Shown here in pieces: positions 5,131 to 48,135 of a DNA stretch of 58,545 nt. The position numbers and the translations under genes are program-made. How positions within the stretch are numbered: the stretch's first letter is position 1; each line of letters begins with the position of its first letter. The stretch is from assembly GCA_903884505.1 (NCBI GenBank), contig CAISET010000022.1:1-58545 (forward strand), read 5' to 3'. The stretch is from an uncultured Microcaldota archaeon (lineage in GTDB: Archaea; Micrarchaeota; Micrarchaeia; Burarchaeales; Fermentimicrarchaeaceae). The notes beneath the pieces are model-generated. The model was not told where the DNA came from and did not search any database. It saw nothing but the letters and a program-made list of their open reading frames with translations.

Positions 5131-5165
5131 TGCTTTCGGCGAGGAGGGGTCAGCGGGGGAATCAG

Positions 5166-5264
5166 GAGGAGCGTGGATCGGCAACGAACGTTGCCGACAT
5201 TTCGCCGGGAGGCGAATTTGACTGAAGGGGGCCGTCGCAACTGCGCAACACCCGAAGGTGTTGC
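5166..5264. other. Multi-hairpin structured element, copy 1
   Basis: GAGGAGCG at 5166-5173 is followed by three hairpins: 5178-5185/5190-5197 (8 bp, loop GAAC), 5201-5206/5211-5216 (6 bp, loop GGGA) and 5245-5252/5257-5264 (8 bp, loop CGAA). The first two hairpins, their 3-nt spacing and the GAGGAGCG lead recur at 43291-43342 with compensatory changes in the stems. The element lies between the divergent promoters of the beta-helix gene and ftsZ. It could be a structured RNA or a mobile palindromic repeat. Confidence 0.6.
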
Positions 5265-5299
5265 GGGAGACGCACATCCCTGCGGTTTCGTTGAAAAGG

Positions 5300-21673: not shown

Positions 21674-21696
21674 ATGCTTGTTTTGTGGATTTGGTC

Positions 21697-21705
21697 ATTT
21701 ATAAT
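21697..21705 (-). promoter_or_regulatory. TATA box of the winged-helix-like gene
   Basis: ATTATAAAT on the minus strand, 24-32 nt before the ATG at 21673, giving a leaderless transcript. Confidence 0.5.
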
Positions 21706-21718
21706 CGTTTGTATCGGG

Positions 21719-21747
21719 TTCTATTTGAAATAGAAACTATTTTATAT
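21719..21747 (+). promoter_or_regulatory. Palindrome and TATA box controlling the MoxR-HEAT operon
   Basis: TTCTATTTgAAATAGAA (21719-21735) is an 8-bp inverted repeat around one base. It directly precedes the TATA box TTTTATAT at 21740-21747. The start at 21781 is 34 nt after the TATA box. The position suits a regulator acting at TFB/TBP binding, possibly the divergently encoded winged-helix-like protein. Confidence 0.5.
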
Positions 21748-21780
21748 GGCAATAGGCAAATTATGGCGTGGCGGGCCGTC

Positions 21781-22812
21781 ATGCCGCCCAACCGTCTCCG
21801 ACGGGGTGATTTCGTGGTCGAAAAGAACGGTGATGCGCTGAAGACGCTCGAACGCCGGCCTAACGGCGTCTTTGTCTCGAGGCCTGATGCGGTTGATGCG
21901 GAACTCAGGAAGCTTTTTGATTTGCAGAAGGAGAGGATTAAGAATGAGCCCTATTTCCCCGTCGGCGGGGAGCTGGAGGTCATGCGTGCGGCTTATTACG
22001 CGAACCTCCCGATAATACTCAAGGGCCCGACGGGCATCGCGAAATCCACCCTGGTCGCCAATTTTGCGGTAATGATGGGGCTGCCCATGGAGAAGGTGCC
22101 CGGCGAGCAGAATATCTCCACGTCGAACTCCATCGGCAGCGTCATTCCCCTGGAGGTCGAGGGTATGGGGGTAACGATGGTGTACAAGGACGGCCCCGTG
22201 GCGAATTTCGCCCGCTCCGAGAAGGGCGCGCTCCTTTATATCACCGAGGCGAACAAGATTGAGGGCGGCATGCTCTCCGCATTCCACACCATTACGGATT
22301 ATGACCGGATGCTCTATATACTGGTCACGGGCGAGCACATACCGCTTTCGCCGAAAAGCGCCGTGATTACGGACTACAACCCGCTCTATAAGGGGGGGCT
22401 GGAGAACCTCTCGCCCGCGTTCCTGCAGAGGTTCGTCCACATCACGCTCGAGATGCCCGAACAGAAGAAGGAGCAGGCGATTTTCGAGATGAAGTACGGG
22501 CTCAGGGACAGGCCTGGCGCCCCGGAGCTCGGGAAGCGCGCGCCGAGGAAGGCGGATAAGGCGCTCATAGATGCGCTCACGAAGGTCGCGAAGGACATCC
22601 GCATGGGGAAGGACAAGAACTTCGACATCATCGAGTCGCCCTCCCCGAGGCTCGTTGACAACGCGATTAAGCTCGTGGAGCAGGGGCTTTCCCCGTATTA
22701 CGCCGTCATGCACGGGCTCATACAGCCTCTCGTCGACACGCTGAACGGCTCCTACCACGCCATGCTGAAGGTCGTGGACGGGTTCTCGACTTTGCTTGAA
22801 GGGAAGCCTTAG
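21781..22812 (+). CDS. MoxR-type AAA+ ATPase
   Basis: 343 aa. AAA+ core with Walker A GPTGIAKST near residues 82-90 and sensor 1 region AVITDYNP. The arginine-finger region SPAFLQRF is present. Walker B reads ALLYITEANK: the catalytic Glu (about 156) is kept but the usual Asp before it is Thr. A C-terminal helical lid follows (PRLVDNAIKLVEQGLSPYYAV). MoxR ATPases such as NorQ, CbbQ and RavA work with a VWA partner to remodel or activate other proteins; the partner here is encoded at 30585-32990. The ATG at 21781 suits the TATA box; an ATG at 21763 is too close to it. Confidence 0.88.
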   Translation: MPPNRLRRGDFVVEKNGDALKTLERRPNGVFVSRPDAVDAELRKLFDLQKERIKNEPYFPVGGELEVMRAAYYANLPIILKGPTGIAKSTLVANFAVMMGLPMEKVPGEQNISTSNSIGSVIPLEVEGMGVTMVYKDGPVANFARSEKGALLYITEANKIEGGMLSAFHTITDYDRMLYILVTGEHIPLSPKSAVITDYNPLYKGGLENLSPAFLQRFVHITLEMPEQKKEQAIFEMKYGLRDRPGAPELGKRAPRKADKALIDALTKVAKDIRMGKDKNFDIIESPSPRLVDNAIKLVEQGLSPYYAVMHGLIQPLVDTLNGSYHAMLKVVDGFSTLLEGKP

Positions 22813-22822
22813 AGGTGGGCGC

Positions 22823-23380
22823 ATGCCGACTGAGCGCTCCAGGGCCGGCTTCCTCTACGAGGCCAGCTTCATAGAAAGGGCCAGGATTTGGTGGCACGTG
22901 CGGAGGCTGAACAGGAGCCGCAGCGAAAGGGCGCGTTACGATGCGGCTTGCACATTGAGCGCAATTGGGGACGCAAGTGCGGTGGAGCCGCTCATCAAGG
23001 CGGCCCGGTCTTCTTCCAGCCTCAGGGTTCGGATTGCTTCGGTATTGGCGCTGAGGAACATCGGGGATGAAAGGGCCATCGAGCCGCTGGTTAAGCTTCT
23101 GGAAGGAGACACCAGTGAGTCGCATGATTACAGGATACTTGATGCGCTCGCGGAATTTGGCATGCCTGCTGCCGCGCCGCTTGTTGAGCTTGCGAGGACG
23201 ACCGAAGACAAGCACCTGAGGCGGGAGATTTCGAATGTTTTGGAGAAGATAAACAGGATTGCGAAGTGGAAGCCGCATGACTTCGGGATTCGGGATACGG
23301 CTGTAATTCCTAAGCCGGAGGTTCCGCCTGAGTTCCAGAGACTGGTGCTGAAGGATGTGCCGAAAGCGAAGATTGCGTGA
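22823..23380 (+). CDS. HEAT-repeat protein 1
   Basis: 185 aa, about four HEAT repeats of the PBS-lyase type, shortest in repeat number of the series. The head is atypical: MPTERSRAGFLYEASFIERA, then RIWWHVRRL, the WWHVR form seen also in copies 3 and 17. The cap LVELARTTEDKHLRREIS resembles that of copy 11. The tail has HDFGIRDT and PPEFQRLVL. HEAT arrays form curved alpha solenoids that bind proteins or DNA; a partner is not known. SD GAGGTGG lies 4 nt before the ATG, 11 nt after the ATPase stop. Confidence 0.85.
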   Translation: MPTERSRAGFLYEASFIERARIWWHVRRLNRSRSERARYDAACTLSAIGDASAVEPLIKAARSSSSLRVRIASVLALRNIGDERAIEPLVKLLEGDTSESHDYRILDALAEFGMPAAAPLVELARTTEDKHLRREISNVLEKINRIAKWKPHDFGIRDTAVIPKPEVPPEFQRLVLKDVPKAKIA

Positions 23381-23385
23381 TGATT

Positions 23386-23982
23386 ATGGATGAGGTCGAT
23401 GAGCTCATAGGAAGGCTGCGGAAGGATGGCGATGCTGAGGAGCGGGCGCGGGCTGCGTTGAGGCTGGGGGGGCTGAAGGAAAAAAGGGCAGTGGAACCGC
23501 TGATTGAGGCGCTTGGAGATGCGGACTCGAATGTTAGGAGGTATGTGGCGTTAGCGCTGGGGAAGATTGGTGATGAGAGGGCGGTGGAGCCGCTGATTGG
23601 TGCACTGAACGGAGATGCGCAGCCGTATGTTCGATGGGATGCGACGGATGCGCTGGGGGAGATAGGTGGTGCGAAGGCGGTGGAGACGCTAATTGAGGCG
23701 CTTGAGGATGCGGATAGATTTGTTCGAAATAGTGCAGCTGATGCACTGGTAAGGATTGGGGAGCCTGCCGTGAAACAGCTGGTTGAGGCGGCGATGGAGC
23801 CGGAGAAGAGGCATCTTAGGGGGATGATTGCCGGGATTCTGAAGGACATTGATGAGAAAGCGAAGTGGAAGCCGCATGACTTCGGGGTTCGCGATACGGA
23901 TGTGATTCCCGTCCCCAAGGTTCCGAAGGAGTTTGAGAGATTGGCGCTGAAGGATGTGCCGAAAGCGAGGGTTCCTGGTTGA
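23386..23982 (+). CDS. HEAT-repeat protein 2
   Basis: 198 aa, about five repeats, head MDEVDELIGRLRKDG, tail HDFGVRDTDVIP with PKEFERLAL. The start is taken at ATGGATGAG because the preceding GTGAT, part of the stop junction TGATGATT, sits where an SD should be. An ATG 6 nt earlier is the alternative. The repeat at about 23521-23570 (SNVRRYVALALGKI) is nearly the same in DNA as one in HEAT protein 12 at about 33399-33440, a sign of module exchange. Confidence 0.85.
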   Translation: MDEVDELIGRLRKDGDAEERARAALRLGGLKEKRAVEPLIEALGDADSNVRRYVALALGKIGDERAVEPLIGALNGDAQPYVRWDATDALGEIGGAKAVETLIEALEDADRFVRNSAADALVRIGEPAVKQLVEAAMEPEKRHLRGMIAGILKDIDEKAKWKPHDFGVRDTDVIPVPKVPKEFERLALKDVPKARVPG

Positions 23983-23987
23983 TTGCT

Positions 23988-25043
23988 ATGTTCGAGGGAA
24001 TTAAGGTATGGTGGCATGTGCGAAAGCTGCGGAGCGGAGATGCCGAGGAGCGGGAGCATGCTGCGGAAAGGCTGGGAGAGCTGAGAGGTGCAAGGGCGGT
24101 GGAGCCGCTGATTAAGGTGTTGGGGAATGACGAGCCGTATATTCGGTATTATTCGACTGAGGCGCTGGTGAAGATTGGAGAGCCTGCGGTGGAGCCGCTG
24201 ATTAAAGCTCTGGAAGAGGGTGATTCGCGCGTTCGCTATGGGGCGGCGAGGGCTCTGGGGAAGATGGGGGATGCAAGAGCAACGGAGCCGCTGATTAAGA
24301 CGCTTGGGGATGCGGATAGAAATCTTCGGATTAGTGCGGTGGAGGCGTTGGGGACAATTGGTGATGAGAGGGCCATTGGGCCGCTGAGTGAGATGCTTGG
24401 AGATGCGGATTCGACTGTTCGGAGGAATGCGACGTTGGCGCTGGGAAAAATAAAATATGTGAGGGCAGTTGAGCCGCTGATAAGGGCGCTTGATGACGAA
24501 GATGCAGATGTTCGGACATATGCGGCATTGGCACTGGAAAAGCTGAAAAATGTGCGTGCGGTGGAGCCGCTGATTAAGTCGCTTGGGGATGGGACGTATT
24601 GGGTTCGGATACATGTGGTGGGGGCGCTGGGACAGATAAAGGACGTAAGAGGTGTGGAGCCGCTGATTAGGACGCTTGGAGATAAGGACGCGGATGTTCG
24701 AATGAATGCGACGTTGGCGCTGGGGGGGATAGGCGAGCAGGCGGTTGGGCCGCTGATTAAGGCGCTTGATAATGGAGATGCGAGTGTTCGGTGGAATGCA
24801 GCGAAGGCGCTGGAGGAGATAGGCGAGCCCGCTGTTGTAAAGCTAGTCGAGGCGGCGAAGGAGCCGGAGAAGAAGCACCTTGTGAGGACGATTTCCGGGA
24901 TTCTGAAGGAGATTAACGAGAAAGCGAAGTGGAAGCCGCATGACTTCGGCTGCAGGGAGACGGAGATTCTTCCTGTGAAGAAGGTTCCGAAGGAGTTTGA
25001 GAGATTGGCGCTGAAGGATGTGCCGAAAGCGAAGGTTGCGTGA
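23988..25043 (+). CDS. HEAT-repeat protein 3 (about ten repeats)
   Basis: 351 aa with the longest single uninterrupted solenoid of the series. Its head is MFEGIKVWWHVRKL instead of the MDEVEEL form. Repeats alternate between connectors of the type DARAVEPL and the shorter type GEPAVEPL. The cap is VVKLVEAAKEPEKKHLVR and the tail HDFGCRETEILP with PKEFERLAL. It starts 5 nt after the upstream stop. Confidence 0.87.
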   Translation: MFEGIKVWWHVRKLRSGDAEEREHAAERLGELRGARAVEPLIKVLGNDEPYIRYYSTEALVKIGEPAVEPLIKALEEGDSRVRYGAARALGKMGDARATEPLIKTLGDADRNLRISAVEALGTIGDERAIGPLSEMLGDADSTVRRNATLALGKIKYVRAVEPLIRALDDEDADVRTYAALALEKLKNVRAVEPLIKSLGDGTYWVRIHVVGALGQIKDVRGVEPLIRTLGDKDADVRMNATLALGGIGEQAVGPLIKALDNGDASVRWNAAKALEEIGEPAVVKLVEAAKEPEKKHLVRTISGILKEINEKAKWKPHDFGCRETEILPVKKVPKEFERLALKDVPKAKVA

Positions 25044-25048
25044 TGATT

Positions 25049-25666
25049 ATGGATGAGGTCGATGAGCGCATAGAGAAACTGCGGAAGGGGGACGGTGCCG
25101 AAGAGCGGAGGCAGGCTGCGGTGAGTCTGGGAGAGCCGGGATACACGAGGGCTGTTGAGCCGCTGATTGAGGCGCTTGGGGATGCGGATTGGAGTGTTCG
25201 GGCTGATGCAGCGGGATCGCTGGGGAAGATTGGTGATGAGAGGGCGGTGGAACCGTTGATTGGTATGCTGGGAGATGAGCAGGCTGGTGCGCTGGGAGAT
25301 GAGCATGGATATGTTCGATGGCAAGTGGCGAAGGCGCTGGGTGAGATGGGTAGTGTGAAGGCGCTGGATGCGCTGATAGGGGCGCTTGGGGATGCGAATA
25401 AGGATGTTCGCGAGAAGGTGGCGGGGGCGCTGGTGAAGATAGGCGAACCGGCCGTGAAGCACCTGATTGAGGCGGCAAACGACCCGAACAAGAAGCATCT
25501 GAGGCGGGGGATTGCCGGGATTCTGAAGGAGATTAACGAGAAAGCGAAGGAGAAGGAGCACGATTTCGGGATTCGCGATACGGATGTGATCCCTAAGCCG
25601 AATATTCCAAAGGAGTTCAAGAGATTGGTGCTTACGGATGTGCCGAAAGCGAGGGTGAAGGCATGA
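25049..25666 (+). CDS. HEAT-repeat protein 4
   Basis: 205 aa, about five repeats, head MDEVDERIEKLRKGD. The second full repeat carries an 8-residue internal duplication (GDEQAGALGDEHGYVR), a slip of the GDE-A-LGDE unit. Tail HDFGIRDTDVIP, PKEFKRLVL, ending RVKA. The stop codon overlaps the next start as ATGA. Confidence 0.85.
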   Translation: MDEVDERIEKLRKGDGAEERRQAAVSLGEPGYTRAVEPLIEALGDADWSVRADAAGSLGKIGDERAVEPLIGMLGDEQAGALGDEHGYVRWQVAKALGEMGSVKALDALIGALGDANKDVREKVAGALVKIGEPAVKHLIEAANDPNKKHLRRGIAGILKEINEKAKEKEHDFGIRDTDVIPKPNIPKEFKRLVLTDVPKARVKA

Positions 25667-26256
25667 GCGACGAGGTTGAGAAGCTCATAAAGAAACTGCA
25701 GAAGGGCGATAACATGGAGCGGAAGCTGGCTGCGGGGAAGCTGGGAAAGCTGAAAGATAAAAGGGCGGTTGGGCCGCTGATTAATGCGCTGGGGGATGAA
25801 GACGGAACGGTTCGGTGGTGGGCAGCGGGGGCGCTTGGGAGGATAGGCAATGTGAAGGCCGTGGAGCCGCTGATTGGTGCGCTGGGAGACGAGGATAAGC
25901 GCGTTCGAATGTATGCGGCCGATGCACTGGGAAGGATTAAGAATGAGAAGGCGGTTGGGCCGCTGATAGGAGTGCTTTGGGATAGGAATTCGGGTGTTCG
26001 GGTTAATGCGGTGTGGGCGCTGGTGGAGATTGGTGAACCTGCCGTGAAGCATCTTGTCGAGGCAGCGAAGGAGCCGGAGAAGAGGCATCTTAGAGGAATG
26101 ATTTCCGAGATTCTGAAGAAGATGGATGAAGAGATGAGGAAGAAGCCGCGCGATCTGGGCTGTAGGGAAACGGAGGTACTGAAACCGAAGAAGGTTCCGG
26201 AGGAGTTCGAGAGGTTGATGCTGAAGGATGTGCCGAAGGCGAGGGTGAAGGCATGA
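25663..26256 (+). CDS. HEAT-repeat protein 5
   Basis: 197 aa, about five repeats, head MSDEVEKLIKKLQKGD. This is the first member with the MSxEV start, which follows genes ending in VKA through an AAGGCATGAGC junction. The tail is the RDLG variant (PRDLGCRETEVLK, PEEFERLML), where His and Phe of the common form are replaced. Confidence 0.85.
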   Translation: MSDEVEKLIKKLQKGDNMERKLAAGKLGKLKDKRAVGPLINALGDEDGTVRWWAAGALGRIGNVKAVEPLIGALGDEDKRVRMYAADALGRIKNEKAVGPLIGVLWDRNSGVRVNAVWALVEIGEPAVKHLVEAAKEPEKRHLRGMISEILKKMDEEMRKKPRDLGCRETEVLKPKKVPEEFERLMLKDVPKARVKA

Positions 26257-27404
26257 GCGGCGAGGTTGAGGAGCTCGTAAAGAAACTGCAGAACGGCAGC
26301 GATGAGGAGCGGAGGAAGGCAGCCAGAAAGCTGGGGGAGATGAAGGAGAAGAAGGCAGTGGAGCCGCTTATTGGGGCGCTGAAGGATGTGAATGCGGGTG
26401 TCCGATTGTATGCTGCGGAAGCGCTGGGGAATGTGGGTGACGTGAAGGCAATCGAGCCGCTGATTGGGGTTCTGGGGGATGAAAATCCATATGTTCGTGA
26501 GGATGTGGCGAAGGCGCTGGGGAAGATTGGTGATGCAAGGGCCGCGGGAGCGCTGATTGGGGTTCTGGGAGATAGGACTTCGATGGTTCGGCATTATGCG
26601 AAGGAAGCGCTGGTGCAGATTGGCGAGCCTGCGGCTGGAAAGCTGGTCGAGGCAATGAAGGACCCGGAGAAGAAGCACCTGAGGCTGGAGATTTCCAGGA
26701 TTCTGGAGAACAGGTTCGGGTTGACGGTTTTGGACGAGGTTGAGAGGCTCGTAGCGGAACTGGAGAACGAATGTGTTCATGGGCAGATAGAGGCTGCGAA
26801 GAAGCTGGGAGAGCTGAGAGACATCAGGGCAGTCGGGCCTTTGATTGAGGCGCTTGAAAGTTTGGACGATGAGATCCAAAGGAATGCGGCTTGGTCGCTG
26901 GGGGAGCTGAAGGATGCGCGGGCAGTGGAGCCGCTGGTAAAAAGGCTTGGCGAGGCGGATGAGATTTTTCGGGATAATGCGGCAGAGGCGCTGGGTAAGA
27001 TTGGCGTGCCTGCGATTGGGTTGCTGATTAAGGCACTTGGGGATGCAGATAGAAATGTCCGAATTAATGCGGCAGTGGCGCTGGTGAAGATGGGCGAACC
27101 GGCCGTTGGGCCGCTGATAGGGGCGCTTGGGGATGGGAATGCTGAGGCTCGGGGCCATGCGACGTTGGCGCTGGAGGATATTGGCGAGCCTGCCGTGAAG
27201 CATCTTGTCGAGGCGGCGAAAGACCCGAAGAATAAGCACCTGAGGTGGGAGATTTCAGGTATTTTGAAGAGGATTGACGAGGGGATGAGGGAGAAGCCGC
27301 GCGATCTGGGCTGCGTTGAGAATGAGAGGCTGAAGCCTCCGGAGATTCCGCCTGAATTCCAGAGATTGGTGCTGAAGGATGTGCCGAAGGCGAAGATTGC
27401 GTGA
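26253..27404 (+). CDS. HEAT-repeat protein 6, fusion of two units
   Basis: 383 aa, about eleven repeats. Residues 1-150 form a full unit (head MSGEVEELVKKLQNG, three repeats and a cap ending ISRILEN) whose tail is missing. Directly after it comes a second head, RFGLTVLDEVERLVAELENE, and a six-repeat unit with cap and tail PRDLGCVENERLK, PPEFQRLVL. It looks like two neighbouring genes joined by deletion of one tail and stop. Its last 132 nt match HEAT protein 13 at 130 positions. Confidence 0.87.
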   Translation: MSGEVEELVKKLQNGSDEERRKAARKLGEMKEKKAVEPLIGALKDVNAGVRLYAAEALGNVGDVKAIEPLIGVLGDENPYVREDVAKALGKIGDARAAGALIGVLGDRTSMVRHYAKEALVQIGEPAAGKLVEAMKDPEKKHLRLEISRILENRFGLTVLDEVERLVAELENECVHGQIEAAKKLGELRDIRAVGPLIEALESLDDEIQRNAAWSLGELKDARAVEPLVKRLGEADEIFRDNAAEALGKIGVPAIGLLIKALGDADRNVRINAAVALVKMGEPAVGPLIGALGDGNAEARGHATLALEDIGEPAVKHLVEAAKDPKNKHLRWEISGILKRIDEGMREKPRDLGCVENERLKPPEIPPEFQRLVLKDVPKAKIA

Positions 27405-27409
27405 TGGTT

Positions 27410-28084
27410 ATGGACGAGGTTGAGAAGCTTATTGAGAAGCTGCGGAACGGCGATGACAGTGAGCGGTCGCAGGCCGTGAAACAGCTTGGAGAGTCGAACG
27501 ACCCGAGGGCGGTTGAGCCTTTGATAGCGGCGCTTAAGGATGCGAAGTGGAGCAATCGGATTAATGCGGCGAGTGCGCTGGGAAAGATGGGAGACGCGAA
27601 GGCGGTTGAGCCGCTTATTGAGATGCTTGGGGCGGAGGCGAGTGTTCGGATTGGTGTAGCACATGCCCTGGGAGAGCTGAAGGATGCGAGGGCTGTGGGG
27701 CCGCTGATTAAGGTGCTTGAGGGTGCGGACTCCGATGTTAGGAAGTATGCAGCGGAGGCGCTGGGGAAGATAGGCAAACCTTCCGTGGAGCCGCTGGTTA
27801 AGCTGCTGGAGAACGCGGATGGAGATGTTAGAGACGATGCGGCGTGGGTGCTGGTGGATATTGGCGAGCCGGCCGTGAAGAATCTGGTTGAGTCGGCTAA
27901 GGACCCGGAGAAGAGGCACATCGTGAGGACGATTTCCTGGATTTTGAAGAAGATCAACGAGAAGGCGAGAATAAGGGAGCACGATTTCGGAGTTAAAGAT
28001 AGGACCGTGATTCCGGCCCCGGGAATTCCGAGAGAGTTCCAGAGACTGGTGCTGAAGGATGTGCCGAAGATGAAGATTGCGTGA
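27410..28084 (+). CDS. HEAT-repeat protein 7
   Basis: 224 aa, about six repeats, head MDEVEKLIEKLRNGD. One repeat is shortened (EMLGAEASVRIG, two residues less than usual). Tail REHDFGVKDRTVIP with PREFQRLVL, ending PKMKIA. The stop TGA is part of the TGATGATT junction with the next gene. Confidence 0.85.
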   Translation: MDEVEKLIEKLRNGDDSERSQAVKQLGESNDPRAVEPLIAALKDAKWSNRINAASALGKMGDAKAVEPLIEMLGAEASVRIGVAHALGELKDARAVGPLIKVLEGADSDVRKYAAEALGKIGKPSVEPLVKLLENADGDVRDDAAWVLVDIGEPAVKNLVESAKDPEKRHIVRTISWILKKINEKARIREHDFGVKDRTVIPAPGIPREFQRLVLKDVPKMKIA

Positions 28085-28089
28085 TGATT

Positions 28090-28677
28090 ATGGACGAGGT
28101 TGAGTGGCTCATAAAAAAGCTGCAGAAAGGCAGCGAAGAGGAGCGGCTGGAAGCAGCCAGAGCGCTGGGGAATAGGAAGGAGAAGAAGTCGGTGAAACCG
28201 CTGATAAGGAGGCTGAAGGATGCTGATGCGGGTGTTCGCTGGTATGCCGCGGAAGCGTTGGGGAATGTGGGCGATGCGGAGGCGGTGGAGCCGCTGATTG
28301 AGTTGCTGGGAGATGAAGCTCCGGTGGTCCGAATCTATGTCGCAAGTGCACTGGGAAAGTTAGGGGATGCGCGGGCTGTTGGGCCGCTGATTAAGGCGCT
28401 GAGGGATGCGGATTCGAATGTGCGCAATATGGCGAATGATGCGCTGGTGGGAATCGGCGAGCCTGCCGTGAAGGCACTCGTTGAGGAGTCGAGGAAGCCT
28501 GAGAACATGCACCTGAGGCGGCAGATTTCGAAGATTTTAAGGTGGATTGAGTCTGATGCAAAATGCAACAAGCATGATTTCGGGATTCGCGATACGGATG
28601 TTATTCCCGTCCCCAAGGTTCCGAAGGAGTTTGAGAGATTGGCACTGAGAAATGTGCCGAAGGCGAAAATTGCGTGA
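28090..28677 (+). CDS. HEAT-repeat protein 8
   Basis: 195 aa, about five repeats, head MDEVEWLIKKLQKGS. The first repeats resemble those of protein 6 (DAGVRWYAAEALGNVGDAEAVEPL against AGVRLYAAEALGNVGDVKAIEPL). Cap KALVEESRKPENMHLRR; tail NKHDFGIRDTDVIP with PKEFERLAL. Confidence 0.85.
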   Translation: MDEVEWLIKKLQKGSEEERLEAARALGNRKEKKSVKPLIRRLKDADAGVRWYAAEALGNVGDAEAVEPLIELLGDEAPVVRIYVASALGKLGDARAVGPLIKALRDADSNVRNMANDALVGIGEPAVKALVEESRKPENMHLRRQISKILRWIESDAKCNKHDFGIRDTDVIPVPKVPKEFERLALRNVPKAKIA

Positions 28678-28682
28678 TGATT

Positions 28683-29360
28683 ATGGACGAGGTTGAGGGG
28701 CTCATAGGAACGCTGCAAAAAGGCTATTCTTGGGAGCGGAAGGAGGCTGCAGATAGGCTGGGAGCGCTGAAAGATATGAGGGCGGTGGAGCTGCTGATTA
28801 AGGCGCTTGGGGATGGAGATTGGCAGGTTCGGGAGGCGTCGGCTGGGGCGCTGGGAAAGGTAGGTGATGCAAAGGCGGTTGGGCCGCTGATTAGGGCGCT
28901 TGGGGATGGAGCTACGAATGTTCGGTATGAGGCGACGCGGGCGCTGCTGAAGATTGGCGAGCCCGGCATTGGACCGCTGATAAAGGCGTTTGGGGATGAG
29001 AGGGCGAATGTTCGATTGTGTGCGGCGCAGGTGCTGGAGGGGATTGGCGAACCGGCAATAGAACCGCTGATTGAGGCGCTTGGGGACGCAGACGTGAATG
29101 TTCGGATTAATGCGGCATATACGCTGGTGAAGATGGTAGGCGAGCATGGGGTTGGCAAGCTGGTTGAGGCAACGAAAGACCCGGAGAAGAGGCATCTGAG
29201 GCGCGAGATTTCTGCGATTATTACGAAGATAAACGAGGAAGCGAAGGAGAAGCCGCATGATTTCGGCTGCAGGGAAACGAAGGTGCTGGAGCCGAAGAAA
29301 ATTCCTGATGAGTTCAAGAGAGCGATGCTGAGAGACGGGCAGGTTAAGGTGAAAGCATGA
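28683..29360 (+). CDS. HEAT-repeat protein 9
   Basis: 225 aa, about six repeats, head MDEVEGLIGTLQKGY. The cap is altered (VKMVGEHGVGKLVEATKDPE) with one extra residue. The tail keeps HDFGCRETKVLE and PDEFKRAML but its end is degenerate (RDGQVKVKA instead of KDVPKAKV). The stop overlaps the next start as ATGA. Confidence 0.83.
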   Translation: MDEVEGLIGTLQKGYSWERKEAADRLGALKDMRAVELLIKALGDGDWQVREASAGALGKVGDAKAVGPLIRALGDGATNVRYEATRALLKIGEPGIGPLIKAFGDERANVRLCAAQVLEGIGEPAIEPLIEALGDADVNVRINAAYTLVKMVGEHGVGKLVEATKDPEKRHLRREISAIITKINEEAKEKPHDFGCRETKVLEPKKIPDEFKRAMLRDGQVKVKA

Positions 29361-29968
29361 GCGACGAGATTGATGATCTCATTGAGAAGCTGCGGACGAG
29401 CCATGACGGCGAGCGGGAGCACGCTGCGAAAAAGCTGGGGGAGCTGAAGGATGCGAGGGCTGTGGGTCCGCTGATTAAGGCTCTGGGAGATGCGGATTCG
29501 TTGGTTCAGGACAATGCAATGCAGGCGCTGGGAAAGATAGGCAAGCCTGCGGTGGAGCCGCTGATTAAGGCGCTGGAGTATGCGGACTCGGAAGTTCAAT
29601 GGTATGCGGCGCGAATCCGGGGGAATGCAGCGTTGGCGCTGGGAATGATAGGCGATGCGAAGGCAGTGGAGCCATTGGTTGAGCTGCTTGGGGATGCGGA
29701 TTCGACTGTTCGAAGGAATGCGACGTGGGCGCTGGAGTGGATTGGCGAGCCTGCGGCTGGAAAGCTGGTTGAAGCGGCGAAAGACCCGGAGAAGAAGGCG
29801 CTGAGGGGGACGATTTCCGAGATTCTGAAGAAGATAAACAATATTGCGAAGTGTAACTCGCATGATTTCGGGTGCGTTGAGAAGGAGAGGCTGAAGCCTC
29901 CGGAGATTCCGAAGGAGTTTGAGAGATTGGCGCTGAAGGATGTGCCGAAGGCGAAGGTTCCAAGTTGA
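29357..29968 (+). CDS. HEAT-repeat protein 10
   Basis: 203 aa, about five repeats, head MSDEIDDLIEKLRTSH. The third repeat has a 5-residue insertion (WYAARIRGNAALALG). Cap EPAAGKLVEAAKDPEKKALRG is shared with proteins 13 and 14 in part. Tail NSHDFGCVEKERLK, PKEFERLAL. Confidence 0.85.
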   Translation: MSDEIDDLIEKLRTSHDGEREHAAKKLGELKDARAVGPLIKALGDADSLVQDNAMQALGKIGKPAVEPLIKALEYADSEVQWYAARIRGNAALALGMIGDAKAVEPLVELLGDADSTVRRNATWALEWIGEPAAGKLVEAAKDPEKKALRGTISEILKKINNIAKCNSHDFGCVEKERLKPPEIPKEFERLALKDVPKAKVPS

Positions 29969-29973
29969 TGGTT

Positions 29974-30588
29974 ATGGATGAGGTTGAAGGACCCATAGAG
30001 AAGTTGCAAGATGGCAGTGTTAATGAGCGGCAGCAGGCTGCGAAGAAGCTGGGGGAGCTGAAAGGCACGAAGGCAGTGGAGCCGTTGATTGGAGCGCTGA
30101 AGGATGGAGATGCAGATGTTCGGATGTGTGCGGTGAATGCGCTGGGGGAGATTAAAGACGAGAGGGCCGTGGAGCCGCTGATTGTGGCGTTAAAGGATGA
30201 TGATTCGTTTGTACAGATCTTAGCGGCATTTGCGCTGAGTGATATTGGCGGTGAGCGGGCGGTTGGGCTGTTGATTGAAACGCTGAAGGATAAGGATCCA
30301 ATTATTTGTTTGTGGGCGATAGGGGCACTGGTGAGGATTGGCGAGCCTGCTGTGAAGAGTCTTGTTGAGTTTGCAAGAACGACCGAGAACTGGCATCTGA
30401 GGGGGACGATTTCCGAGATTCTGAAAAAGATAAACGAGGAAGCGAAGGAGAAGCCGCATGATTTCGGCTGCAGGGAGAAGGAGATTCTGGAAACGCCGAG
30501 GACGCCAGATGAATTCAAGAAGATCATACTCGATGGGAAACCGGTGAAAGAGGATGCGGAACGGAAGCAGACGAGGGTGAAGGCATGA
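29974..30588 (+). CDS. HEAT-repeat protein 11
   Basis: 204 aa, about five repeats, head MDEVEGPIEKLQDGS. It is more divergent than its neighbours: repeats such as DSFVQILAAFALSDIGGERAVGLL and DPIICLWAIGALVRIG are specific to it. The tail has HDFGCREKEILE and PDEFKKIIL, then an unusual charged ending (GKPVKEDAERKQTRVKA). It directly precedes the VWA gene through an ATGA overlap and may be the member closest in function to it. Confidence 0.83.
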   Translation: MDEVEGPIEKLQDGSVNERQQAAKKLGELKGTKAVEPLIGALKDGDADVRMCAVNALGEIKDERAVEPLIVALKDDDSFVQILAAFALSDIGGERAVGLLIETLKDKDPIICLWAIGALVRIGEPAVKSLVEFARTTENWHLRGTISEILKKINEEAKEKPHDFGCREKEILETPRTPDEFKKIILDGKPVKEDAERKQTRVKA

Positions 30589-32990
30589 GCGGCGAAATCA
30601 AGCTGAAATTGCCGAAAAATGAGGCTTACGAGCGGCTTGGGGAGCTGGCGAAGGGCATGCCGCAGGAGAAGTTCGAGGAGATGCAGAAGAAGCACGGGAA
30701 AAAGTTTGAGGAGCTCGCCGAGCTGGCCGGGAAGGCCGCGAAAATAAACGTGAGGCTCGCGGGGAAGGTGCTCGAGAAGGCCGACGATTTCCTGAAGAAG
30801 ATGGGGGAGAAGGAGATTGACGAAAGGGCAATCTATGTCGCGGTGAAGTGGGGCAACCAGGTCCTCATCCAGAGGGGGAAGGAGATGCCCATCTTGAGCG
30901 AAACGCTCATCGCCGAATTCAAGCCCGAGTTCGCGAAGATGGAGGACTGGCAGTGGGGGCAGCTTGTGGAGCTGCTCCGTGAATTCAGGGATGCGCCGCT
31001 CGCCGCAATCTACTTCATGGATGTCGCCGCGAAGTATGCGGAAGTGAGGCTGAACTGGGAGAAGTTCGTGGAGATGGCGATGAGGGACAAGGATAACGCC
31101 ATACCCTTCATCTGCGAGGAGTCGGACGAGGCGAAGGAATGGCTCGCAAAGGAGATTGCCCGCAGGAAGGTGGCCGTGGTCCGCGGCGCGGACATGCTGG
31201 ACGAGCTGCACGGGTTCGTCGTCTGCGTCTCGCACAGGTCCCTCGGGCTCGTAATCGGGAAGGACAACCACTTCAGCACCAACATGACGAACGTGTTCAA
31301 CCCGGAGATGGTCCACCTCTTCGATTCCAAGGAGAAGAACAGGCGCTGCTACGTGGTAAGCAACCTGCACGAGGCAGGCCACCACAGGTGGGATTCCTTC
31401 GAGGTGGATGTCGGGAAGCTGAATTACGGGGCGTTCGGCTGGAAGCGCGCTGCGACCGGGAAAATAATCCTGGAGAAGGGGGAGGAGAGGATAGAGGTGA
31501 AGGACTGCTTCGACCTGTACAAGCTCTTCCCGAACTCCGCAGTAGGGCAGTGGCTGCACAACGTGCTCGATGACGGGAGGGTGGACCTCTCGAACTGCAG
31601 CTATTACGATGGCTATGCCGAGGACATAAGGGGAGACAACCGCGACCTCCTGCGTTTCAGGCCCGATGTGAAGGGGAGCGGCGCGGAAGAGATTTTCGAG
31701 GCGCTGCTGCAGCTCGTGATTACCGACACTACGAAGCACCCGCTCTCCCCCGAGCTTGAGAAAAAGGTGATGCCGCTCTACGAAATTGCGAAGAAGGTCA
31801 GGAGGATTGACTCCAATGCGACCGAGACCTTCAACGCGGCAATCGAGATTTACAAGGCGCTGGAGAAGGAGATTCCTCCTCCGAAGATGATTGAGATTCC
31901 GCCCGAGGGCCTCCCAGGCGAATTCAGGCCGAACAAGAACAACCCCGCGAACGTGCGGATTGTCGAAAGCAAGAATGCGAAGGATGGGAAGAAAGGGGAG
32001 GGCGGGAAGCGCGACCAAAAAGAGGGCGCTCCGCACGAGTTCGACGGGCCTGACCCGAAAAAGGATGTGAACATCGAGCCGGACTACTACGATTCGAAGG
32101 ATGGGAAGAACAATTACGACGAATGGAACTACCAGGCCATGAGCTACAGGAATAGTTTTACGCACGTCGATGAGGTGGTGCTGCCTGCCGGGGAGCCCAT
32201 AGAGATTCCCCTGGAGGTCTCGCGCAGGATTGCGAGGATGTTCGACCAGATGAGGCCCGTCGACTTCAGGACCAGGAGGAGGCAGGAGGAAGGGGACGGG
32301 ATAGACGACGAGAGGCTCGCGGAGTATGTGGTTGAGAGGCTGATGGGGCGGATTACGGAGCAGAACTTCTACACGAAAACCACGAGGGAAAAGCGCTCGG
32401 TACTCGTGGGCGTCCTGGCGGATTTCTCGGGCTCGCACCAGGAGAGCATAGGCGGGGTGATGGCGATAGAGATAGGGAAGCAGGCCTTCGCCTGCGTTGA
32501 GAAGGGGGCGGAGATAACGGGCGACCGCGCCGGGGTTTTCGGCTTCACCTCATCCGGGCCTGGCAGGACCGAGGTATACGTCCTGAAGCCGTTCAACGGG
32601 AGGCTCAGCAACTTCAAGATTGAGCCCAAAGCGGCGAACAGGGACGGGACTGCGATAAGGCACGTCACCAGGAAGATGCTGCGCGAGCCGGAGAAGAAGA
32701 AGGTGCTCTTCGTGATAAGCGACTGCAAGCCCAACGACGATGAAGTCTACAAGGATAAATACGCGATTGAGGATGCCGCGAAGGCGGTTTTTGAGGCGAG
32801 GAAGGCGGGAATAGTGACGATGGGGATAGTGCTCGCGGATGAGAAGGAGAGGGATTATGAGAAGATGATGGGGACGGCCAGGGAGGAGGTCTGCGACCGC
32901 ATCTACGGTCGCGGCAGGTACATCACGATAAGCGACATCCGCCAGCTTCCGGAGAGGCTGACGCGGCTCTACGCCTACCTTACGCAGTGA
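30585..32990 (+). CDS. NorD-like VWA-domain protein with HEAGH motif
   Basis: 801 aa. The N-terminal 250 residues are helical. A metallopeptidase-like site HEAGHHRWDSFE starts near residue 262 and HNVLDDGRVD follows about 65 residues later, resembling the NorD-family pattern with an acidic-D-x-R motif. A charged Lys/Gly-rich linker (about 460-500) leads to a C-terminal VWA domain: MIDAS DFSGS at about 613-617, NRDGTAIRH, and SDCKPNDDEVYKDKYAIEDA, which parallels NorD TDGKPND. NorD/CbbO proteins are partners of MoxR ATPases. Its first codons (ATGAGCGGCGA) match those of HEAT proteins 6 and 19-type starts, so the translation start was exchanged too. Confidence 0.88.
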   Translation: MSGEIKLKLPKNEAYERLGELAKGMPQEKFEEMQKKHGKKFEELAELAGKAAKINVRLAGKVLEKADDFLKKMGEKEIDERAIYVAVKWGNQVLIQRGKEMPILSETLIAEFKPEFAKMEDWQWGQLVELLREFRDAPLAAIYFMDVAAKYAEVRLNWEKFVEMAMRDKDNAIPFICEESDEAKEWLAKEIARRKVAVVRGADMLDELHGFVVCVSHRSLGLVIGKDNHFSTNMTNVFNPEMVHLFDSKEKNRRCYVVSNLHEAGHHRWDSFEVDVGKLNYGAFGWKRAATGKIILEKGEERIEVKDCFDLYKLFPNSAVGQWLHNVLDDGRVDLSNCSYYDGYAEDIRGDNRDLLRFRPDVKGSGAEEIFEALLQLVITDTTKHPLSPELEKKVMPLYEIAKKVRRIDSNATETFNAAIEIYKALEKEIPPPKMIEIPPEGLPGEFRPNKNNPANVRIVESKNAKDGKKGEGGKRDQKEGAPHEFDGPDPKKDVNIEPDYYDSKDGKNNYDEWNYQAMSYRNSFTHVDEVVLPAGEPIEIPLEVSRRIARMFDQMRPVDFRTRRRQEEGDGIDDERLAEYVVERLMGRITEQNFYTKTTREKRSVLVGVLADFSGSHQESIGGVMAIEIGKQAFACVEKGAEITGDRAGVFGFTSSGPGRTEVYVLKPFNGRLSNFKIEPKAANRDGTAIRHVTRKMLREPEKKKVLFVISDCKPNDDEVYKDKYAIEDAAKAVFEARKAGIVTMGIVLADEKERDYEKMMGTAREEVCDRIYGRGRYITISDIRQLPERLTRLYAYLTQ

Positions 32991-32995
32991 TGGTT

Positions 32996-33850
32996 ATGGA
33001 CGAGATTAAGGGGCTCATCAAGAAGCTGCAGGCCGGCAGCGATAAGGAGCGGAGGAAGGCGGCTGAGAGGCTTGAGGAGCTGAGGGACAAGAGGGCAGTT
33101 GAGCCGTTGGTTAAGGCGCTGGGGGATGCGAATTTGGATGTTCGGCGTTGTGCGGCGGGGGCGCTGGTGAAGATAGGGAAGCCTGCGGTGGGGCCGCTGG
33201 TAACGGCACTTTGGGCCGTGGATTTTGAGGTTCGGACTAATGCGGCGGCGGTGCTGGGGAGGATGGGAGAGCCTGCTGTCGGGCCGCTCATTAAGGTGCT
33301 GAATGCGAGTTCGACTGTTCGGATGTATGCGGGGCAGGCGCTGGTGAAGATAGGCAAGCCGGCGGTTGGGCCGCTGGTTGAGGCGCTTGGAGATGCGGAC
33401 TCGGATGTTAGGAGGTATGTGGCGTTAGCGCTGGGGAAGATTAAAGATGCAAGGGCGGTCGAGCCGCTGGTTAAGCTAATTGGAGATGCGGATTCGAACG
33501 TTCGAAATGAGGCGGCGTGTGCGCTGGGGGAGATAGGAGATGCGAGGACAGTGGAGCTGCTGGTTAAGGCGCTGGAAGATGCAGATGCTCGTGTTCGGAA
33601 AAATGCGGCAAAGGCGCTTGGGATGATAGGTGAGCCCGCCGTAGGGAAGCTGGTTGAGACGGCAAACGATCCTGAGAAGAAATACGTGAGATGGACTATT
33701 TCAAAAATTCTGGAGGAAATAAACGAGAAAGCGAAGAATAAGCCGCACGATTTTGGCTGCAGGGAGACGGAGATTCTTCCTATGAAGAAGGTCCCGAAGG
33801 AGTTCGAGAGATTGATGGCAGACGGGACTCCGCCCGTAAAGTTGAAGTGA
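32996..33850 (+). CDS. HEAT-repeat protein 12
   Basis: 284 aa, about eight repeats, head MDEIKGLIKKLQAGS. Connectors GKPAVGPL and GEPAVGPL dominate the first half. The tail is HDFGCRETEILP with PKEFERLMADGTPPVKLK, an ending shared in form with HEAT protein 15. A 70-nt stretch (33723-33792) is identical to 37381-37450 in HEAT protein 17 in order. Confidence 0.85.
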   Translation: MDEIKGLIKKLQAGSDKERRKAAERLEELRDKRAVEPLVKALGDANLDVRRCAAGALVKIGKPAVGPLVTALWAVDFEVRTNAAAVLGRMGEPAVGPLIKVLNASSTVRMYAGQALVKIGKPAVGPLVEALGDADSDVRRYVALALGKIKDARAVEPLVKLIGDADSNVRNEAACALGEIGDARTVELLVKALEDADARVRKNAAKALGMIGEPAVGKLVETANDPEKKYVRWTISKILEEINEKAKNKPHDFGCRETEILPMKKVPKEFERLMADGTPPVKLK

Positions 33851-33855
33851 CGGTT

Positions 33856-34551
33856 ATGGACGAGGTTGAGAAGCTCATAGGAACGCTGCAATTCGGCAGT
33901 GTTGAGGAGCGGAAGGAGGCTGCAATACGGCTGGGAACGGTGATGAAGGATGCACGTACGGTGGAGCCGCTCATTAATGCATTGGGGGATGCGGACTCGG
34001 ACGTGCGCTATTGGGCAGCGCGTGCGTTGAGGGAGCAGGGGGATGAGAGTGCGGCGGAACCGCTGATAGTGGCGCTGAAGGATGATGAACCGAATGTTCG
34101 CGGGAAGGCGGCGGAGGCGCTGGGAGAGATAAAAGATGCGAAGGCGGTGGGGCTGCTGATAGGGATGCTGAAGGACGATTCAACGCCACTGAACAGGTCG
34201 GTTCGGGGACATGCGGCGATTGCGCTGGGAAATCTCAAAGATGCCCGGGCAGTGGGGCCGTTGATTGAAGCGCTGAGTTGCGCGGATTCCTGGGTCCATA
34301 TGTACGCGGCGGAGGCGCTGGGAAAGATTGGCGAGCCTGCTGTCAAGCCGCTGATTGCCGAGGCTGCGAAGCCGGAGAAGAAGGCGCTGAGAGGAACGAT
34401 TTCCGGGATTTTGAGGAAGATTGACGAGGGGATGAGGGAGAAGCCGCGCGATTTGGGCTGCGTTGAGAATGAGAGGCTGAAGCCTCCGGAGATTCCGCCT
34501 GAATTCCAGAGATTGGTGCTGAGGGATGTGCCGAAGGCGAAGATTGCGTGA
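33856..34551 (+). CDS. HEAT-repeat protein 13
   Basis: 231 aa, about six repeats, head MDEVEKLIGTLQFGS. This gene fixes the start for the whole family: the junction is GTGACGGTTATGGAC, with no ATG other than ATGGAC. A repeat contains an insertion (MLKDDSTPLNRSVRGHAA). Tail PRDLGCVENERLK, PPEFQRLVL, whose DNA is nearly the same as the end of HEAT protein 6. Confidence 0.86.
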   Translation: MDEVEKLIGTLQFGSVEERKEAAIRLGTVMKDARTVEPLINALGDADSDVRYWAARALREQGDESAAEPLIVALKDDEPNVRGKAAEALGEIKDAKAVGLLIGMLKDDSTPLNRSVRGHAAIALGNLKDARAVGPLIEALSCADSWVHMYAAEALGKIGEPAVKPLIAEAAKPEKKALRGTISGILRKIDEGMREKPRDLGCVENERLKPPEIPPEFQRLVLRDVPKAKIA

Positions 34552-34556
34552 TGGTT

Positions 34557-35144
34557 ATGGATGAAGTTGAAGCGTTTGCTGAAAAGCTGCGAACAGGCAG
34601 TTATTCGGAGAAGACGGAGGCAGTTGAAAAGCTCGGCGAGCTGAAAGATGCGAGGGCTGCGGGGCCGCTGGTTAAGGCGCTGGGAGATGCGCATTCGGCG
34701 GTCCGGGAGAAGGCGGCGGGTGCTCTGGCGGATATGGGCAAGCCTGCCGTTGAGCCGCTGATTGGGGCGCTGGGATGTGAATATTGGGATGTCCGTTACT
34801 GGGCGGCTTGGGCGCTGGGAGAGATAGGTGATGTGGAGGCTGTCGGGCCGCTGATTGGGGCGCTTGGGGATGGGGATAGGTTTGTCCGGGAGAAGGCGGC
34901 AGAGGGGCTGGTGAAGATGGGCGAACCCGCCGCAGGGAAGCTCGTCGAAGCGGCAAACGAGCCGGAGAAGAGGCACCTGAGGTGGGAGATTTCCGGGATT
35001 TTGAGGAAGATTGACGAGGAAGCGAAGAGGAAACCGCATGACTTCGGGATTCGGAATGTGACTGTGATTGCTAAGCCGGAGGTTCCGAAGGAATTCAAGA
35101 AACTGGCGCTGAAGGATGCGCAAAAAGGGAGGGTTACGGGCTGA
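34557..35144 (+). CDS. HEAT-repeat protein 14
   Basis: 195 aa, about five repeats, head MDEVEAFAEKLRTGS, where the usual EELIEKL is changed. Third repeat EYWDVRYWAAWALGEIGD; cap EPAAGKLVEAANEPEKRHLRW. Tail PHDFGIRNVTVIA, PKEFKKLAL, then DAQKGRVTG. The next gene starts 5 nt later. Confidence 0.85.
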   Translation: MDEVEAFAEKLRTGSYSEKTEAVEKLGELKDARAAGPLVKALGDAHSAVREKAAGALADMGKPAVEPLIGALGCEYWDVRYWAAWALGEIGDVEAVGPLIGALGDGDRFVREKAAEGLVKMGEPAAGKLVEAANEPEKRHLRWEISGILRKIDEEAKRKPHDFGIRNVTVIAKPEVPKEFKKLALKDAQKGRVTG

Positions 35145-35149
35145 TAGGT

Positions 35150-35938
35150 ATGTTCGGTATGTTCGACGGAATCAAGGTATGGTGGCATGTGCGAAAGCTG
35201 CAGAACGGCAGCGATGAGGAGCGGAGGAAGGCCGCGATGAAGCTGGGAGAACTTAAAGACGCACGGGCAGTGGAGCCGCTGATTGAAGCGCTGAAGGATG
35301 AGACTGCGGGTGTTCGTGCCAGTGCGGCATGGGCACTGGGAGATATCGTCAACCTCGGGAAAATAATCCGGAAGGGCGAGTTCCCTGCCCGCGGCACTGT
35401 TGTCGGGGCAGTGATGGATGAGCTTTCATCGAAAGAATTTGATGACGCGAAGGCAGTGGAGTCGCTGATTGGGATGCTTGGGGATGGGGATCGGTTTGTC
35501 CGGGAGCATGCAACGATGGCGCTGGGGAAGATAGGTGATGTGAAGGCATTGGAGCCGCTCATTAAGGCGCTGGAAGATGCGGATGTTCGGGGATTCGCGG
35601 CATGGGCGCTGGGGGCGATGAGGGATGAGAGGGCGGTGGGACCGCTGATAAGTATGCTCGGGAATAAAGATGAAGTAGTTCGGGGGTTTGCGGCTGGGGC
35701 GCTTGAAAAAATAGGCGAGCCTGCCGTGAAGCATCTTGTCGAAGCGGCGAGGGACCCGGATAAAAAACCTCTGAGGGGGGCGATTTCAAGAATTTTGAAG
35801 AGGATGGACGAGAATGAGCAGACGAAGAGGCATGACTTCGGCTGCAGGGAAACGGAGATTCTGAAGCCCCCGGAAATCCCGAGGGAATTCCAGAGACTGA
35901 TGGCAGACGGGACTCAGAAGGTGAAGTTGAAGGCGTGA
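35150..35938 (+). CDS. HEAT-repeat protein 15, WWHVR head and insertion
   Basis: 262 aa, about six repeats. The head GIKVWWHVRKLQNGS matches HEAT protein 3; an ATG at 35159 (MFDGIKVWW) is an equally likely start. Between the first and second full repeats lies an insertion of roughly 35 residues (IVNLGKIIRKGEFPARGTVV, then GAVMDELSSKEF) not found in the others. Tail HDFGCRETEILK, PREFQRLMADGTQKVKLK. Confidence 0.85.
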   Translation: MFGMFDGIKVWWHVRKLQNGSDEERRKAAMKLGELKDARAVEPLIEALKDETAGVRASAAWALGDIVNLGKIIRKGEFPARGTVVGAVMDELSSKEFDDAKAVESLIGMLGDGDRFVREHATMALGKIGDVKALEPLIKALEDADVRGFAAWALGAMRDERAVGPLISMLGNKDEVVRGFAAGALEKIGEPAVKHLVEAARDPDKKPLRGAISRILKRMDENEQTKRHDFGCRETEILKPPEIPREFQRLMADGTQKVKLKA

Positions 35939-35943
35939 TGGTT

Positions 35944-36825
35944 ATGGACGAGGTTGAGGAGCTCATAGAGAAGCTGCAGAAAGGCAGCGCTGAGGAACGT
36001 GCTGAGGCGGCTAGGAGGCTTGGAAGGATGAAGGACGAACGGGCCGTGGAGCCGCTGATAGGGAAGCTTGGGAATTTGGAGGTATTGGAACACCTTGTAT
36101 TTGGCCAGAAGTATATAGTGGAGGCGCTGGTGGAGATTGGCAAGCCCGCAGTGGAGCCGCTGATTAAGGCGCTTGGAAATGAGGATGCGGACGTTCGCAG
36201 TGCTGCGGCGCGGACGCTGGAAAAGATAGGGGATGCGAAGGCTGTCGGGCCGCTGATTGGGTTGCTTAGAGATAGGAATGCCGATGTTAGATGGAATGCA
36301 GCGAGTGCGCTGGGTGAAATAAAAGATGTGAATGCCGTCGGGCCGCTGATTGGGGCGCTTGGGGATAAGGATATGGGCGTTCAGGGGAGAGCGGTGGGAG
36401 CGCTGGGAAAGATAAAGGATGCGAGGGCCGTTGAGCCGCTAATCGAAGTGCTGGGAAAAACGGATAAATCCAACCGCGCCACTGCGGCATGGGCGCTGGG
36501 AGAGATAAAAGATGTGAGTGCAGTTGAGCCGTTGATTGTTGCGCTCGAGGATGATGATAAGCTGGTCCGGGAGTTTGCGGCGCGTGCGTTGGGAGAGATA
36601 GGCAAGCCTGCTGTGGAGCCGCTTGTTGAGTTGGCGAGGGACCCGGAGAAGAAGCACCTGAGGCGGGAGATTTCCGGGATTTTGAGGAAGATTGACGGGG
36701 AGATGAGGAAGAAGCCGCATGATTTCGGGTGCAGGGAACGGAAGGTTATGGAGGCGCCACCGATTCCGAGGGAGTTCGAGAGATTGGTGTTGAGGGATGT
36801 GCCGAAAGCAAGGGTTACAGGTTGA
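35944..36825 (+). CDS. HEAT-repeat protein 16
   Basis: 293 aa, about eight repeats, head MDEVEELIEKLQKGS, the consensus form. The first repeat has a divergent block (GNLEVLEHLVFGQKYIVEAL). Connectors of the type IKDVNAVGPL and IKDARAVEPL prevail in the second half. The cap is EPLVELARDPEKKHLRR and the tail HDFGCRERKVME, PREFERLVL, VTG. Confidence 0.86.
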   Translation: MDEVEELIEKLQKGSAEERAEAARRLGRMKDERAVEPLIGKLGNLEVLEHLVFGQKYIVEALVEIGKPAVEPLIKALGNEDADVRSAAARTLEKIGDAKAVGPLIGLLRDRNADVRWNAASALGEIKDVNAVGPLIGALGDKDMGVQGRAVGALGKIKDARAVEPLIEVLGKTDKSNRATAAWALGEIKDVSAVEPLIVALEDDDKLVREFAARALGEIGKPAVEPLVELARDPEKKHLRREISGILRKIDGEMRKKPHDFGCRERKVMEAPPIPREFERLVLRDVPKARVTG

Positions 36826-36830
36826 GGGAT

Positions 36831-43258: not shown

Positions 43259-43272
43259 TTCTTTCGTTAACG

Positions 43273-43379: not shown

Positions 43380-43395
43380 GGTTAAAGGAGAAGTT

Positions 43396-48095: not shown

Positions 48096-48135
48096 GCGTT
48101 CCACCCCAACTATAAGGAGCTATTCTGGTTATGAC

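Follow-up and report, generated by a model that had tools for sequence, protein, structure and literature searches.

In the 58,545-nucleotide stretch of DNA analysed here (the window), which derives from an uncultured Microcaldota archaeon, two short segments, one located before ftsZ (copy 1) and one after purQ (copy 2), contain a series of hairpins in which changes on one side of a stem are matched on the other. This raises the question of whether they encode a structured RNA, as selection for base pairing would suggest, or represent palindromic mobile units resembling bacterial REPs, the two readings offered by the original prediction. Because these sequences are dispersed in dozens of copies with defined ends, are mosaics of modules, have inserted in pilin, tRNA and rRNA genes, are in some cases flanked by direct repeats and are patchily distributed between genera, the second reading is favoured, and we consider it probable that they belong to a non-autonomous, REP/MITE-like family of mobile palindromes whose insertions in RNA genes survive as spliced introns.

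The unit common to both segments consists of two hairpins, with the sequences and pairings originally described. Copy 1 (5166-5264) opens with GAGGAGCG, followed by a first hairpin (TCGGCAAC at 5178-5185 with GTTGCCGA at 5190-5197), the spacer CAT and a second hairpin (TTCGCC at 5201-5206 with GGCGAA at 5211-5216). In copy 2 the first hairpin (TGCGCAAC at 43305-43312 with GTTGCGCA at 43317-43324) is followed by the spacer GTT and the second one (ATCGCC at 43328-43333 with GGCGAT at 43337-43342). The third hairpin is also present in both, with a CGAA loop in copy 1 and a GAA loop in copy 2. The outer pairing proposed for copy 2 is real and in fact runs four pairs further (T43268-A43384, A43269-T43383, A43270-T43382 and C43271-G43381), across a G.G mismatch that separates these pairs from the stem 43273-43281/43371-43379. 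Against dinucleotide shuffles, the fold of copy 2 (43259-43384) has a z score of -3.11 and that of copy 1 (5150-5292) one of -2.22. The features of the two segments are the following, types A, B and C being distinguished by their ends as described below.

43259-43384, + strand: copy 2, a complete type-A palindromic element of 126 bp (covariance model match, fold z score, own-genome BLAST).
43259-43267, + strand: 5' foot of copy 2, located outside the stem and reading TTCTTTCGT, against a family consensus of TTTTCCGT (columns of alignment A3 that are invariant or almost so).
43268-43281, + strand: 5' arm of the terminal stem of copy 2, composed of TAAC, the G of the G.G mismatch and TTTCTTAGG (pairing, fold).
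43305-43346, + strand: module M1 in copy 2, two hairpins with the spacer GTT, then TCGA (alignment of 19 M1 copies).
43355-43365, + strand: third small hairpin of copy 2, CCCC (43355-43358), GAA, GGGG (43362-43365) (fold).
43371-43384, + strand: 3' arm of the terminal stem of copy 2, composed of CCGAAGAAA, the G of the G.G mismatch and GTTA (pairing, fold).
5166-5220, + strand: module M1 region in copy 1, from GAGGAGCG through the hairpins at 5178-5197 and 5201-5216 to TTTG (M1 alignment, fold).
5221-5288, + strand: body of copy 1, ACTGAAGG...GCGGTTT, which holds module M2 and is common with a locus on another contig (near-identical alignment).

The two segments had been taken as copies of one element, which is right insofar as both carry M1; beyond this module they have nothing in common, copy 2 being of type A and copy 1 being a composite whose end type is different. 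The body of copy 1 contains M2, the hairpin formed by GCAACACC (5245-5252) and GGTGTTGC (5257-5264), and recurs nearly unchanged at locus L002 on contig G000:C5. Since this otherwise near-identical stretch has no M1, M1 is a separable, inserted module.

Elsewhere in the window, at positions 21685-38116, some twelve related ORFs with HEAT repeats are arrayed in tandem and have a C-terminal tail in common (HDFG...VPKEFxRLxLKDVPKAK); they adjoin an ORF for a MoxR-like ATPase (21685-22812) and one with a VWA-like C-terminus (30585-32990). On the minus strand, a 1534-aa ORF (53763-58367) has repeats of the right-handed beta-helix type (NNLTGNTA...), and a smaller ORF similar to it lies at 46551-48104, also on the minus strand.

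The family to which the two segments belong is best seen in their own genome (G000; 1.51 Mb in 37 contigs), where BLAST finds 19 places with copy 1 as the query and 37 with copy 2, pairing being kept in these further copies. Three types of ends can be distinguished: type A (TTTTCCGTTAACGCTTTTASSATRT ... AAAAGGGTTA), type B (GGAGGTTCAGGAACCNASGATRT ... GGTTCTGA) and type C (GTAGAAACCGACGATATGCGC ... GCGCATCGGGGGTTTCT). A pattern scan of the genome allowing up to three mismatches detected 35 ends of type A and 27 of type B, and the reversed-pattern control none. Elements with the same ends differ in their insides and in length (57 to about 370 bp): a single imperfect hairpin makes up the shorter ones, and the longer ones contain extra hairpin modules. 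The core of type A is an 8-nt foot, TTTTCCGT, followed by an imperfect hairpin whose outer stem comprises a variable self-complementary triplet, a conserved G.G mismatch (C.C on the other strand) and a CTTTT/AAAAG block, after which elements of this genome have an AT bulge of 2 nt and then the inner stems. These inner stems have received additional modules of two hairpins (M1, M2 and others), and both M1 and M2 are found inside type-B elements as well. A covariance model built from type-A ends (R1) recovers copy 2 at 43260-43384 (32.1 bits, E 4.4e-5).

The compensatory nature of the stem changes is borne out by alignments of many more copies. Among 19 distinct genomic copies of M1, 99.6% of the cells are paired, five pairs are changed on both sides and the covariation score is 0.308, against 0.069 when shuffled. 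In alignment A3, which contains 28 type-A ends, 80.4% are paired and 15 pairs are changed on both sides, giving a score of 0.328 against 0.147 for shuffled alignments, a value that none of 500 shuffles reaches (0.06-0.14 for slid versions). The three outermost pairs of A3 show changes on both sides in three, six and six copies, respectively, and are broken in none. The terminal triplet is the exact reverse complement of its partner in 25 of 25 own copies and in 60 of 62 copies of relatives (85 of 87 in total), while shuffled triplets match in means of 8.8 and 11.8 and maxima of 16 and 22 copies, respectively. Twelve different complementary triplet pairs are in use (TAA, GAA, CAA, TGA, TGG, TAG, CAG, GGG, GAG, AAA, CGA and AAG), and the position one step inside the triplet retains its mismatch (G.G, or C.C on the other strand).

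Such covariation, together with the stable folds, is what a discrete structured or cis-regulatory RNA (e.g., a riboswitch, sRNA or attenuator) would display. However, it does not point to an RNA function of its own, because a paired end required for mobility and, in RNA genes, for splicing would produce it, and palindrome-correcting mutation may do so as well. Several observations speak directly against the RNA reading: the window contains no Rfam match above the gathering score; the copies have no common gene context, being found behind purQ, ahead of ftsZ, at the ends of tpiA and lipA and in genes for pilins, tRNA and rRNA; whole stems are exchanged between copies, and modules are inserted and lost; and it is the stems that are kept and not the loops. 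The elements in the window are thus best read as something other than a discrete functional RNA, an explanation to which we assign an extremely low probability.

Dispersed copies outside RNA genes show how these elements sit in the genome. Many lie just 3' of stop codons, and copy 2 itself starts right at the 3' side of the purQ stop codon, between convergent genes. This is the placement expected of fixed extragenic palindromes, i.e., transcription terminators or sites of DNA-protein binding that have been spread by recombination. That explanation is nonetheless highly improbable, since copies are also found within tRNA, rRNA and coding sequence, the foot and hairpin have defined ends, and the elements are present in some genera and absent from others. 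As to coding sequence, type-B elements at L088 and L090 are in frame in pilin genes, where they are read antisense and add SEPP...VPEPP segments, L090 having coding sequence for the pilin N-terminus on both sides of the element; L101 is a further type-B element of the same genome, and all three are placed within or at the N-terminal part of a pilin-like gene. A separate observation concerns L040 (G000:C1:91644-94681), where M1 is in frame in the N-terminal extension of a gene read as that of ribosomal protein S11.

Direct repeats are found just outside the ends of several elements, with lengths of 49 bp at L055 (tpiA), 33 bp at L057, 25 bp at L062, 36 bp at L081 (lipA), about 20 bp at L106 and 12 bp at L101, in the pilin gene. 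This range of 12-49 bp is unusually variable, and most dispersed copies have no flanking direct repeat above the level of shuffles; a target-site duplication of constant length, as expected of MITEs, was not found. At L055 (G000:C27:46479-49497) and L081 (G000:C1:53383-56402) the two repeat copies differ almost only synonymously, and just one of them can be the live gene end; one possibility is that the live copy has been replaced via recombination with a diverged strain. A guide-target model in which an internal triplet picks the target, as in IS200/IS605, was considered for the variable triplet and rejected, as at L055, L057 and L062 this triplet lies outside the duplicated target, from which it follows that both halves of the triplet travel with the element.

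A second setting of type-A elements is the interior of tRNA genes. With introns allowed in ARAGORN, complemented by reading, about 11 tRNA genes of the own genome contain a type-A element as an intron: Thr(TGT), Thr(CGT), Ser(GCT), Ser(TGA), Arg(GCG), Gly(TCC), Lys(CTT), His(GTG), a Leu and, with an ambiguous isotype, those at L060 and L063; the intron of Thr(TGT) is 47 nt long. Several identities had been misnamed by ARAGORN, Lys(CTT) being assigned by in-silico splicing and Gly(TCC) and Leu by reading the anticodon arm. In-silico removal of the element yields a normal tRNA in about 11 own genes and at many loci of relatives, the latter not including matches with the junction at a tRNA edge, which are intact neighbours. 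The predicted pre-tRNA folds contain the anticodon stem, a short bulged helix (similar to a bulge-helix-bulge, BHB, in several), the hairpin of the element and often another one near GGAAAA; statistics of exon-intron complementarity in a helix test are not significant. The restored cloverleaves and these folds suggest that type-A elements are removed from tRNA genes by splicing, and their orientation, which is sense in all cases, is what selection for an intron that can be removed would favour. The sister genus (G001) has intronless versions of five of these tRNAs, namely Arg(GCG), Gly(TCC), His(GTG), Thr(TGT) and Leu(CAG), a comparison made by isoacceptor and not by synteny, and its introns in Thr(CGT) and Lys(CTT) are unrelated to type A. 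As Lys(CTT) of this genus already contains an intron of 12 nt, some copies may have entered older introns instead of creating new ones. At L127 (G000:C36:104904-108407) a gene for a tyrosine recombinase that ends in a C-terminal zinc ribbon lies about 0.7 kb from the type-A element in a tRNA-Leu intron; next to it, an ORF of 237 aa without a Pfam match is, by eye, a possible remnant of a homing endonuclease.

The distribution among relatives extends this picture. R1 matches occur in 30 of the 196 genomes of the class, at up to 21 places each; copy numbers are lower bounds, and the compared genomes are MAGs of uncultured organisms with largely fragmented assemblies. Within one family there are 21 matches in G000, 16 in G002 and 11 in G003, whereas genus g2, which belongs to this family too, has none in its five genomes. 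An exact-pattern scan of 85k genomes returned only two real relatives, both from the same family, the remaining matches being chance; the two loci come from MAGs named 'Candidatus Micrarchaeota archaeon' and 'Candidatus ainarchaeum sp.', the nearest named relatives here, which places the host in this group of DPANN archaea. As to viral carriage, IMG/VR gave no relevant match, the single one (L151) being without a hairpin partner. Copies of relatives are found, by reading, in tRNA T loops (GTTCAA|...|ATC; L157, L171, L176, L208 and L212), in D loops (L166 and L214) and in anticodon loops, and a tRNA-Leu of G002 (L113) carries two elements; others lie within matches to 23S rRNA (L158, L163, L170 and L210) or 16S rRNA (L175 and L201). 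Further copies, e.g., in G065 and G086, are outside any recognised RNA gene. One locus of G086, L202 (G086:C123:18394-19100), contains four type-A-like elements in tandem at a spacing of exactly 50 bp.

Since most of the sampled copies of relatives sit in tRNA or rRNA genes, the order of events could be the reverse: the tRNA introns would have come first, and excised introns, as RNA or as a DNA copy, would have been pasted elsewhere, the dispersed copies being dead copies of introns. Intron copies are indeed structurally fuller than dispersed ones, with the second hairpin around GGAAAA, and there is a precedent in Thermoproteales, in which, according to the passages of PMC4090602 and PMC4033280 that draw on Fujishima 2010, tRNA introns with similar sequences have moved among tRNAs by a mechanism given as unknown. 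However, a search for reverse transcriptase (PF00078) was negative in all 8 family genomes; the dispersed copies form a large, modular and internally covarying set, some members of which have direct repeats of their own; and types B and C, none of which was seen as a tRNA intron, have the same general design as type A. An origin from introns is therefore possible and yet doubtful.

The enzyme that would mobilise such a family is putative. The Y1 (HUH) transposase associated with REPs (PF01797) has no match in the 8 family genomes, whereas the control genomes were positive, and no autonomous copy with an internal gene, nor a parent transposon, was seen among the loci examined. Tyrosine recombinases were also considered, and rejected as the mobiliser, as their presence does not track that of the elements: there are three matches in G000, none in G003, which has elements, and eight in G001, which has none. 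This bears on another explanation, in which the bulged, asymmetric and imperfect hairpins would be folded attachment sites recombined in single-stranded form by such an enzyme (attC/integron-like or att). One of the three G000 matches does lie close to a type-A element, the one in the tRNA-Leu gene mentioned above; most copies have none linked to them. Yet the copies are single and dispersed among housekeeping genes instead of forming cassette arrays, and single sites alone explain neither insertion nor flanking repeats of up to 49 bp, which together with the distribution of the recombinases makes this explanation improbable.

Under the preferred reading of a mobile palindromic family, a putative trans-acting enzyme would recognise the folded end formed by foot and hairpin, as RAYT does on bacterial REPs, and would copy or move the element. 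Insertion would be tolerated at gene ends and in intergenic gaps, in protein genes if in frame, and in tRNA and rRNA genes if in sense orientation, where the archaeal splicing endonuclease could remove the element as an intron of the BHB type. Compensatory changes would then preserve the hairpin for mobility and, in RNA genes, also for splicing, and not a separate functional RNA. The endonuclease of Micrarchaeum (ARMAN-2) accepts relaxed BHB substrates (PMC12397907).

Several known systems share part of these properties. The foot of bacterial REPs is GTAG or GGAG, unlike the TTTTCCGT of type A. Rickettsia palindromic elements, which measure about 100 bp, likewise enter protein genes in frame, as well as other places, and the present elements are likened to them by description and not by sequence; formation of tRNA or rRNA introns is not a known feature of the Rickettsia elements. 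REP/REPIN systems with their RAYT (TnpA-REP) also have a palindrome that is short, imperfect and interrupted by a mismatch or bulge, with a conserved foot on one side, many dispersed copies and composites (PMC2817692, PMC3116915), represented here by the foot, the G.G mismatch, the AT bulge and the 35 type-A ends. The present family differs in the presence of copies as introns in tRNA and rRNA genes and in the lack of a Y1 transposase in the genome and its relatives, because of which the family can be called REP-like in its working and is not established as REP. MITEs are likewise small, non-autonomous and dispersed and have terminal inverted repeats, as found here, but the present family stands apart in the long and variable direct repeats of some copies, the asymmetric foot, the nested hairpin modules and the failure to find a parent transposon.

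With regard to introns, integration of a larger element has been proposed for one Caldiarchaeum tRNA (PMC3293823) and direct repeats near introns have been surveyed (PMC11782384); the open-licence literature yielded no account of DPANN archaea in which one palindromic family occurs both in dispersed form and as introns. In contrast to the Thermoproteales introns, which belong to another phylum, the same sequence is abundant here outside RNA genes, with termini, modules and some flanking repeats. This dispersed form with termini of its own would give the intron a mobile form that is open to study. These elements could show how archaea gain introns, and they make such gain testable: one sequence exists both as introns (in anticodon, D and T loops and in 16S and 23S rRNA) and in a dispersed form that has defined ends, in some cases flanking repeats, and a strict rule of internal pairing. 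A further parallel is found in the eukaryotic introners, transposable elements that generate introns (PMC9860276), in which one repeat family likewise gives rise to many introns at once, its ends being terminal inverted repeats that are accompanied in part by direct repeats. Here, too, the same repeat occurs as many introns and in dispersed form, and introns are present or absent by isoacceptor in the comparison with G001; the differences are that the host is an archaeon, the genes are those of tRNA and rRNA, and the splicing endonuclease probably takes the place of the spliceosome. We give an even chance to the proposal that these elements are an archaeal counterpart of introners, in which mobile palindromes, moved by a putative, so far unrecognised enzyme, create new introns in tRNA and rRNA throughout an entire DPANN class while, in the same genomes, their mobile form still exists outside RNA genes.
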